A stretch of 35,961 bases of DNA from Spirochaetes bacterium RBG_13_51_14 (lineage in GTDB: Bacteria > Spirochaetota > UBA4802 > UBA5550): assembly GCA_001829455.1 (NCBI GenBank), contig MIBH01000041.1:1-35961 (forward strand), read 5' to 3'. The notes beneath the pieces are model-generated. The model was not told the DNA's origin. It did not search any database and saw only the letters and a program-made list of their open reading frames with translations. The position numbers were made by a program, and so were the translations under genes. Shown piece by piece: positions 10,879 through 14,025 of the stretch; position 1 is the first letter of the stretch; the number at the start of each line of letters is the position of its first letter.

Positions 10879-11328
10879 TCAATGATGACGATATCGATCC
10901 TCGATGAGCCCCCTGGCGTGCACGTACAGCTCGCTGCCGCTGATTTCCATCGCTCTGCCGATGAATAGCAGCGCGTTTTTGTAGTCGCCGTTCTTGTATG
11001 CGTACTTGGCCATAAGATACGGGAGACGGTCAAAAGAGGGATCGACGCGAGACGCTTTCTTGAGAATATGCACGGCATCGGAGAATCTCTTCCGGGCGGC
11101 GAACACCCGGGCGAGGGCTATGTAGGCATAAATGAAATTCGGGTTCAGGTCGATGGCACGGCTCAAACAGTTCAGCGCCTTTTCGTGATTACCGTGGCGG
11201 ATCCACCCCACCGCCATGTCATAGCAATCATCGGCCTCTATGTAATCGTAGTGCTTCACTGCGTGTGACTCACGAAGTAGTATGCAATCCCGGCCACTGA
11301 AATCAAGATGGAAATAAAGCCGGCTCAC
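10879..11328 (-). CDS. Small TPR-repeat protein
   Basis: The 149-residue protein contains about three tetratricopeptide repeats from residue 35: AVGWIRHGNHEKALNCLSRAIDLNP, then AYIALARVFAARKRFSDAVHILKKA, then LMAKYAYKNGDYKNALLFIGRAM. TPRs form helical scaffolds for protein contacts. There is no signal peptide. Translation starts at a GTG preceded by AGGTGAT. The gene lies 27 bp after the prodomain-like lipoprotein gene and is probably the last of an operon with it and the secreted subtilase. Its partner is unknown. Confidence 0.85.
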   Translation of the reverse strand: MSRLYFHLDFSGRDCILLRESHAVKHYDYIEADDCYDMAVGWIRHGNHEKALNCLSRAIDLNPNFIYAYIALARVFAARKRFSDAVHILKKASRVDPSFDRLPYLMAKYAYKNGDYKNALLFIGRAMEISGSELYVHARGLIEDRYRHH

Positions 11329-11355: not shown

Positions 11356-11724
11356 TTATTTATAGCGGTTCCGACCCTGCGTACGGTACCGGTAGTTCGG
11401 TTGAATAAACGACACACCGGGGCAGTCCGCGGCCCTTTTTTTTAATTCATCAAGACCGGGGTCTCTTTTGAATGTGATGAGATGCATATTTTCGGTGATC
11501 GATTTTTTGATAATGACCGGCCCGATCGCGCCGAAACACTCATCTATGGCGCTCTTTTCTATCCCGGCATTCAGCTTTACGATGTATTCTCCGAATACGA
11601 CGGAACCGGCCCCGGCGGGCTCCGATCTTACGGAATCAGACGGGATGAGCCCGCCCCGGCCGTCATCATGATTATCGCACATCAGAAGGAGCGGAAGCAC
11701 TAACATTAAAAAAAAATTTCTCAT
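11356..11724 (-). CDS. Lipoprotein resembling a stand-alone subtilase prodomain (I9-like putative protease inhibitor)
   Basis: The 122-residue protein starts with a short hydrophobic signal ending in LLLMC at residue 16, a loose lipobox. From about residue 45 it reads EYIVKLNAG, then an alternating strand-helix pattern, GLDELKKRAADCPGVSFIQPNYRYR. This mirrors the propeptide of the subtilase encoded just upstream ([11 protein letters not shown] to [11 protein letters not shown]) in order and spacing. Subtilase prodomains act as intramolecular chaperones and tight inhibitors, and free I9-type domains inhibit subtilases, so an inhibitor or folding helper for the neighbouring protease is the best inference. 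It lies 24 bp after the subtilase gene. It has no protease domain of its own. Confidence 0.75.
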   Translation of the reverse strand: MRNFFLMLVLPLLLMCDNHDDGRGGLIPSDSVRSEPAGAGSVVFGEYIVKLNAGIEKSAIDECFGAIGPVIIKKSITENMHLITFKRDPGLDELKKRAADCPGVSFIQPNYRYRTQGRNRYK

Positions 11725-11748
11725 GAGAAATCCCGGAGCCGCGCATAG

Positions 11749-13614
11749 TTATAATTGAATCGCAGCCACGCTTTCCGGCGGCCGGAGGTGGCGGACCGCA
11801 CCGAAGGCGTTTGCCGCCCTTCCGGATGTGGTTTTACCCCTCAAGGACCTGACCGGCTCCCCTCCGCCCGTAACGGCAGCGGCCAGATCGGCATAATCGT
11901 AATCCGGATTGTAGGCTTTCACCAGCGCGGCGACGCCTGCCGCGTACGGTGAAGCCATGGAGGTGCCGTCGTATACCCTGTATTCATCCAGGGTGCCGAT
12001 ATCCAGAGCTTCCAGGTCGAAGTATTCGATTGCCGCGCCCGGATACTGGATCGAGGAATCCGTTTCGAGCTGGAACCCCACGGTGCAGTTAATACTACCG
12101 ATACAGCTCGTGAGATCGTATTTTTGATAGAATTCATTTAAGCCGCTGTAGGAAAAGAGCTGTGTCCCGCTGAAGGGACTGCCCGCCGTACCAGCATAAT
12201 AAGCCCTGAATTCGTCATTCCCCAATTCTGTATAAAACAACGCCACCATCTGCAGGGTTACCAGATCTTCTTCACCGGTAAGACTGAAGGTCTTGTGCAC
12301 CCTGTCATCGATATTATTTTCATATGCGCCTTTTGGAAAACCAGGGGGGTTTACCAGCATATCGATTCCGCTGATCCTTTTATAACTCCATCCGACACCG
12401 GAAGATTCGGTCCAATCGAGCGTGTTACTTCCGGTATGGAAATCCTCAACATATGACGTCAGGTTTCCGGCGAAGGTGCTGATGATGTTGGTCCCCGGCG
12501 CGCCCACGTCGACGCTGGTCTTGCCGTAATTGGAGAAGGTGGCCCGGCTGTAGGCCTGGTCAAGGGCGGCGACGCAGACCAGGTTGTCATGGGTGAAAGA
12601 GCAGGGATATACTTTTATGCCGGAATATCCGAAATTATGCCTGTCGACATCATATCCGCTGTTGCCCGCTGCGACGACCACCAGCACGTTGTGATCATGC
12701 GCATATTGAATGGCGTCGCCCATTACTGAATCGTACACCATTTCGCCGCTCAGGCTCATATTGATGATGTCAGCCCCGTTGTTGGACGCATACATGATTC
12801 CCTCGGCGATATCAGCCGTGTCTCCGGTTCCATCCGAGTCCATGACCCTGACCGCCATGATCCACGTGTCGGTCTTCCAGGCTATCCCGGCCGATCCAGC
12901 GCCATTGCCGCCGGCTGCGGCGATTATGCCCGCCACATGGGTGCCGTGGCCGTTCAAATCCATGGGATCGTTGTCGCCGGTGTCAATGAAATCATACCCG
13001 TGATTGACCGCTCCGCTCCACATCCTGTCTGCCAGATCCTCCTGGTTGTAGTTTACGCCGCTGTCGACAACCGCCACGACGACCTGTTCGGGCGGACCGC
13101 CGGGATAGGTGTTGTCGATCTCGTCCCACGCGGCTTCAGCGTCAAGGTCGCATCCCGCCTTTCCCGGGTTGCTTTTTCTATAGGTTCCGCCCGAAACGGT
13201 CTGTTTTGTATTTTTAAGCGCCCACGATTGGCCGTACGAGGGGTCGCCGGGCGCTACCGCGATTTTATAGATATAATTCGGCTGGGCGTATTCCACCGCC
13301 GGATCGCTGTTGTACTCTTTTACCGCCTCTTCTACGGCTCTGTCCCGATCCAGCCGTACCAGCGACGCCCTGTTTCTGTTCAGCGATTTGATCTTGAAGT
13401 CGCCCATTTTCCGTATCGTGACTTCGGCTGTATTAACGCCCGCTCTGTCCCTGAACTTGACGAGAATCTCACCTTCAACGTAATTTTTGGGCTTTATTCT
13501 TTTTCCGGTAAAAAAGTCCTCCGGGTTCGCCGCGGTAAGAGCAAAAAGTGAACAAATCACGACGGCCGGCACCAGTATTGTCACTGTTATTTTTTTATTG
13601 AATCTGGATTTCAT
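11749..13614 (-). CDS. Secreted subtilisin-like serine protease (S8) with prodomain and an insert
   Basis: The 621-residue protein has a signal peptide (about 1-30), a prodomain (about 47-117, ending YAQPNYIYK) and an S8 catalytic domain. The triad is D184 (AVVDSGVNY), H223 (NGHGTHVAG) and S552 (GTSMASP), with the oxyanion asparagine N318 (AAGNSG). Between the GAPGTNI segment (near 372) and S552 there is an insert of about 160 residues rich in aromatic and beta-prone sequence, with two cysteines at 504 and 510 that could pair; it resembles a jelly-roll or CUB-like accessory domain but was not identified. The ATG is preceded by GGGAG at 7-8 nt. Neighbours 18 bp upstream and 24 bp downstream are lipoproteins, so the protease probably acts outside the cytoplasmic membrane. 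Confidence 0.95.
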
Positions 13615-13632: not shown

Positions 13633-14025
13633 TTATTTTATTTTAAAATTCTGCGCGTCGCTGAAATAGACCCGGTATCCTCCGCCAGCGCGGTTCACGC
13701 CCGGCTCGGTGTTCGCGTCCCAGGTCACTTGTACGGTGCAGCTCGGCACGCAGGCGGTGAGCGTGGCAGTCTGTTCCGTGGACTGGTCGCTCACGCTTTC
13801 ACCGAATCCCTCAACGACCCCGACGCTCGAGTAGGCTTTGACCTTGACGTATATGGCGTCCGCTCCGGCGAAATTATCCTCATTGATCGTAAGATCAGCG
13901 GATGTCGGAGATGGGGACCCGTAAGGGACATCGACCATCTGAACATTGTCGCATGAAAGAATAAATATGGCTGCGCCTGCTATAATGAAGCCGGACAGCA
14001 TCTTTCTCATAATGATCATAATCAT
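13633..14025 (-). CDS. Lipoprotein with fibronectin type III-like segment
   Basis: The start at 14025 is chosen because a perfect AGGAGG lies 9 nt upstream; it gives 130 residues. A signal peptide ends in the lipobox FILSC (Cys25). The mature part is beta-rich and ends in VQVTWDANTEPGVNRAGGG plus YRVYF, which matches the C-terminal strands of FnIII domains. It heads the apparent operon with the subtilase, which follows after 18 bp. The function is unknown; a surface binding or adaptor role is possible. A weak promoter (TTAATT, 17 bp, TACAAT on the minus strand near 14055-14085) may drive the operon. Confidence 0.75.
   Translation of the reverse strand: MIMIIMRKMLSGFIIAGAAIFILSCDNVQMVDVPYGSPSPTSADLTINEDNFAGADAIYVKVKAYSSVGVVEGFGESVSDQSTEQTATLTACVPSCTVQVTWDANTEPGVNRAGGGYRVYFSDAQNFKIK

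Follow-up and report, generated by a model that had tools for sequence, protein, structure and literature searches.

What is a small lipoprotein doing directly behind a secreted subtilase if it repeats the prodomain of this protease and carries no catalytic domain? The question is raised by a gene cluster in a stretch of 35,961 nucleotides from Spirochaetes bacterium RBG_13_51_14, called the window throughout. On the minus strand four genes follow each other in the order of transcription: an FnIII-like lipoprotein, the subtilase, the stand-alone propeptide-like lipoprotein (ProL) and a TPR protein, separated by gaps of 18, 24 and 27 bp (Table 1). The 24 bp between subtilase and ProL, together with 4-bp overlaps of the two genes at other loci, suggests that they are co-transcribed. 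Promoter and terminator scans gave sites no more numerous than in shuffled sequences. We consider it likely that the window holds a three-gene unit: a lipoprotein with an FnIII-like domain, the secreted subtilase, and ProL as a stand-alone mimic of the propeptide, borne on a lipoprotein signal.

Table 1. Features of the subtilase-ProL locus, in positions of the window.
Feature	Position	Strand	Description
FnIII-like lipoprotein gene	13633-14025	-	130 aa, lipobox LSC, ORF; first gene of the conserved unit
Subtilase gene	11749-13614	-	621 aa, secreted; ORF and Pfam Peptidase_S8
Subtilase prodomain	13264-13479	-	residues 46-117; PF22148 match, alignment to ProL
ProL gene	11356-11724	-	122 aa ORF, without catalytic domain
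ProL signal peptide	11677-11724	-	lipobox-like LLLM-C16, non-canonical
ProL propeptide-fold core	11383-11604	-	residues 41-114; D88-P89-G90 motif, Q108/N110
ProL C-terminal tail	11359-11394	-	residues 111-122; P1-equivalent Q116, then GRNRYK
TPR protein gene	10879-11328	-	listed start GTG

The protease carries an S8 domain (Pfam Peptidase_S8, 2.2e-42) with the catalytic residues Asp184, His223, Asn318 and Ser552, and its relatives in the family are 37-48% identical. Its own prodomain is intact and matched Pfam PF22148 (Fervidolysin_NPro-like; 2.6e-14) with 53.8 bits, above the curated cut-off of 21 bits. A clear lipobox was not seen in the subtilase itself. An insert of ~160 residues (12133-12464 on the minus strand, about residues 384-547) splits the S8 domain in two before GTSMA; it is common to the relatives, and no Pfam family above cut-off covers it. 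The same genome also contains a decayed copy of the unit (G000:C9:51361-61639; L029:5278-5895). There, the FnIII-like lipoprotein is fused in frame to a subtilase piece, made up of the end of the prodomain and the start of the catalytic domain, and fragments follow.

The 122-aa protein behind the protease reproduces, as a protein of its own, the fold of the neighbouring subtilase's prodomain. The local alignment of ProL residues 43-114 with subtilase residues 46-117 scored 73, compared to a mean of 29.8 (sd 4.3) and a maximum of 52 in 2000 shuffles, and a single BLASTP comparison of ProL with the partner's prodomain gave 27% identity over 89 aa (E 3e-6). The earlier note had claimed that this protein repeats the prodomain layout without a catalytic domain, and both results bear this out. 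PF22148 was reached by the window ProL at 0.021 and 15.7 bits, below the curated cut-off of 21 bits; 6 of 29 ProLs were found by it at E 0.1 or better, likewise below the cut-off. No family for ProLs was found in NCBIfam.

The fold predicted for ProL with AlphaFold2 (29 family members in the alignment) was β-α-β-β-α-β with a core pLDDT of 96-97, which is the propeptide/I9 topology. A Foldseek search of the PDB with this model returned PC1/3 prodomains bound to furin (TM 0.66-0.72, normalised to target), the prodomains of subtilisin BPN' (0.63) and PAM protease (0.60), and further prodomains of PCSK9, site-one protease and fervidolysin. We are aware of the fact that RRM domains, which have the same general topology, were mixed among these matches and that none of them reached E 1e-3, so the fold by itself is not decisive. 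An earlier, shallower model had given weaker fold matches, with POIA1 among them. Searched against PDB sequences, the ProL family profile found the solved subtilisin-like propeptide 9rk9_A (E 0.0019) and two others more weakly, where a search with the single ProL sequence returned nothing relevant. Comparison with I9 inhibitors had been suggested in the earlier note, which named a fold unrelated to I9 as the result that would speak against its idea; the predicted topology and the 9rk9_A match point the other way.

In order to see how far the gene pair extends in relatives, as the earlier note had proposed, a profile from seven ProL members was searched over 393 genomes of Spirochaetota. Within the seven-member alignment conservation was too low for a pattern scan. 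The search yielded 17 stand-alone copies in 16 genomes. In 12 cases the ProL gene comes immediately after a subtilase of the same kind and shares its strand; in two further cases a subtilase is close by, once beyond an ATPase gene and once on the opposite strand. The remaining three are apart from any subtilase, which counts against ProL as an inhibitor of its partner. A second pair from the genus itself was found in Spirochaetes bacterium RBG_16_49_21. Among the best 80 of 425 subtilase relatives, taken from named genomes, 13 more pairs were detected in Nitrospirota, Pseudomonadota, Bdellovibrionota and Myxococcota, several of them with stop and start codons overlapping by 4 bp; the ProL of locus L103 is the most divergent of these 13. 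Altogether 30 ProLs were collected over the five phyla. For many subtilases of this kind the survey found no adjoining ProL gene. The surveyed genomes are mostly metagenome assemblies, and several loci end at contig edges. One of the unlinked copies (L034:6899-7237, G011:C35) sits immediately after a fliD-like gene and one further ORF, and the FnIII-subtilase pair of its genome is on another contig; this ProL has lost most of its tail, including the end, which likewise counts against the inhibitor reading. With a small gene beside and co-directional with the protease gene in lineage after lineage, the arrangement is that of protease-inhibitor gene pairs such as SpeB-Spi. Since the pair recurs in five phyla, it is probably a real and undescribed protease-inhibitor system rather than a product of chance.

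The same survey separated the two outer genes. Relatives of the FnIII-like lipoprotein gene directly precede the subtilase in most surveyed loci of several phyla, even where ProL is missing, so that its assignment to the operon in the earlier note extends to a conserved unit. The TPR gene had been assigned to the same operon, and here the assignment failed: the protein is kept in all six genomes of the genus with 63-69% identity, but in five of five sister genomes the orthologue lies on another contig than the subtilases found there. Judged by this placement, the TPR gene is a bystander. Matches to the TPR protein begin near residue 21, and its true start may therefore lie further in than the listed GTG. 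In the window lipoprotein the FnIII-like domain shows a circular permutation: the profile built from 21 relatives matched it as two swapped halves (profile 42-102 at residues 21-88, then profile 3-46 at residues 86-129), and the rotated sequence gave one continuous match with 83 bits versus 71. The permuted order was found in 0 of the 21 relatives.

We asked whether ProLs had been copied repeatedly from the prodomains of their neighbours. In a tree of 30 ProLs and 36 prodomains a single branch separated the two groups with a support of 100/90, and it was present in all 200 bootstrap trees checked. Forks within either group were weak, because the alignment comprised only 74 columns. A DPG motif is common to the ProLs and not present in the prodomains, with Pro and Gly invariant in 29 members. 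Over 22 pairs the mean identity was 30% between ProLs and 21% between a ProL and the prodomain of its own partner. Tree, identities and motif together argue against repeated copying, and the position of the ProLs on one branch apart from the prodomains points to a family that is old and has been kept by selection. A ProL is barely closer to the prodomain of its own partner (21%) than to those of other partners (18%); cognate specificity judged in this way is weak, which counts against the inhibitor reading. The distances between ProLs correlated with those between the catalytic domains of their partners (r 0.63, as high in 0 of 2000 permutations), a correlation that could also come from shared descent. 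An exception was observed in a Desulfobacteraceae locus (L119:4105-6529), where a subtilase with its own prodomain is preceded by a stand-alone prodomain lipoprotein. Both share RPWDRWL and the lipoprotein has no ProL motif; the arrangement therefore looks like a separate and more recent origin.

The lipoprotein signal claimed for ProL in the earlier note stood in part. The signal peptides of all seven ProLs of the order end in an aligned Cys, but the lipobox of the window protein is non-canonical. Over all five phyla, 13 of the 30 ProLs showed a canonical lipobox and 12 a looser one (two of them doubtful), and 5 showed none by the pattern used, which overlooked the PAAC of the G044 ProL and counted it among the 5. 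The core is preceded by a linker of mostly about 20-30 residues. Given the Cys in most ProLs, we would expect the inhibitor in most cases at the envelope, at the end of a flexible linker and presumably tethered by lipid. The non-canonical lipobox in the window and its absence from some distant members count against an envelope-tethered inhibitor.

The C-terminal end of ProL was compared with the subtilisin BPN' propeptide, which ends six residues after its capping Asp, at the P1 residue Tyr77. When the QPNY motif of ProL is aligned to this end, Q108 and N110 fall on what we take to be the helix-capping positions, and Q116 presumably corresponds to P1. By this alignment the ProLs keep polar residues at both putative capping positions. 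Two protease helices are capped in BPN' by Glu69 and Asp71 of the propeptide; in SUB1-ProM, Glu146 and Asn148 correspond to them (PMC6993865). Exactly at the propeptide P1-equivalent 13 of the 30 ProLs end, while one is shorter and the others are 2 to 18 residues longer. A product-like inhibitor would be expected to end at the propeptide cleavage point; the window ProL continues for 6 residues, which was counted against this reading.

Taken as an inhibitor, ProL would work as follows. Synthesis of the subtilase would yield a zymogen, whose built-in prodomain would guide folding and then be removed. After its export, ProL would stay tethered to the envelope of the cell and fold independently. 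It would dock on the mature protease in the manner of a propeptide, with its sheet on two surface helices, Q108 and N110 at the ends of these helices and the C-terminal tail occupying the active-site cleft as a cleaved product does. Protease that becomes active too early would be kept inhibited at the envelope of the producer, and protease leaving the cell would be active. The data show the genes, their homology, the predicted fold, the kept linkage, the separate descent and the tail ends; lipid tethering, docking, inhibition and self-protection we infer, and we regard it as rather probable that ProL is an envelope-tethered, product-like inhibitor of its partner subtilase which protects the producer from its own enzyme.

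A competing explanation is that ProL aids folding in trans, as a second, membrane-held prodomain acting on the subtilase after export, with inhibition being secondary. The location right after the protease gene and the common prodomain fold would suit such a helper, and propeptides of mesophilic subtilases serve as both chaperone and inhibitor (PMC10580911). However, the subtilase already possesses an intact prodomain, many related subtilases do without a ProL gene alongside, and the tail end-points fit a product-like inhibitor. We consider a folding helper unlikely. As folding can be left to the prodomain that the subtilase retains, inhibition of the mature enzyme is the most likely function for ProL, and it is favoured over help with folding. 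Even less probable is a role chiefly as anchor, in which propeptide-type contact would hold the protease at the cell surface or the periplasmic face of the membrane for display and not for silencing. A contact of the predicted kind would close off the active site, and a lipobox is lacking in several ProLs, although the lipoprotein signal and linker of most ProLs, and a subtilase without clear lipobox of its own, would agree with anchoring.

The three copies unlinked to a subtilase might point to inhibition of other proteases, those of competitors, prey or hosts, the linkage being historical. With the linkage kept over five phyla and the partner distances correlated, we give this little credence. 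That ProL is the decaying, functionless remnant of a second subtilase gene is the least credible explanation. Such genes do decay, as the damaged FnIII-subtilase copy in the same genome demonstrates, but the ProLs have open frames, share the DPG motif, form a single branch apart from the prodomains and conserve their linkage over five phyla. This pattern of conservation largely refutes a remnant.

Stand-alone I9-type inhibitors have been described from fungi, a plant and apicomplexan parasites, namely Pleurotus proteinase A inhibitor 1, yeast proteinase B inhibitor, Arabidopsis SPI-1 and Toxoplasma MIC5 (PMC6993865). Like ProL they have the propeptide fold without a protease domain; as described, they show no significant sequence similarity to propeptides (PMC6993865), whereas ProL is similar to the prodomain of its neighbour. 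SUB1-ProM of Plasmodium comes close, as a small exported propeptide fold encoded beside subtilase genes with residues at both helix-capping positions, but it is eukaryotic and was shown to inhibit (PMC6993865), while ProL is bacterial, usually a predicted lipoprotein, has its own DPG motif and is a putative inhibitor. In bacteria, pairs of a protease gene and an inhibitor gene are known among the cysteine proteases (PMC3462683). SpeB-Spi, staphopain-staphostatin and the Bfi/Bti inhibitors of C10 proteases in Bacteroides share with the ProL pair the coupling of a small inhibitor gene to an adjoining secreted protease gene, and some Bfi/Bti inhibitors are predicted lipoproteins as are most ProLs; the proteases are of the cysteine type, however, and the inhibitor folds unrelated (PMC3462683). 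The subtilase PopC of Myxococcus is likewise restrained by a separate partner protein, PopD, but this complex, compared here by its description, blocks secretion before export (PMC6434023), unlike the inhibition proposed for ProL. The nearest annotated family is the Fervidolysin prodomain PF22148, to which the subtilase's own prodomain belongs; the ProLs stay below its cut-off and make up a branch of their own. In the open-access literature we found no report of the ProL family.

What shields bacteria from the subtilases they secrete is usually taken to be the propeptide in the same chain. If our reading is true, the envelope-tethered propeptide copy beside the protease gene in five phyla is a separate safety device. 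We think the odds slightly favour an undescribed cassette of wide occurrence in bacteria, whose secreted subtilase is checked at the envelope of its producer by a lipid-anchored stand-alone propeptide and accompanied by an FnIII-like lipoprotein, with inhibitors of the I9 type encoded beside their target. Stand-alone I9-type inhibitors, described from eukaryotes in the accessible literature, would then extend to bacteria, and two small gene families unnamed in current libraries would gain a function.
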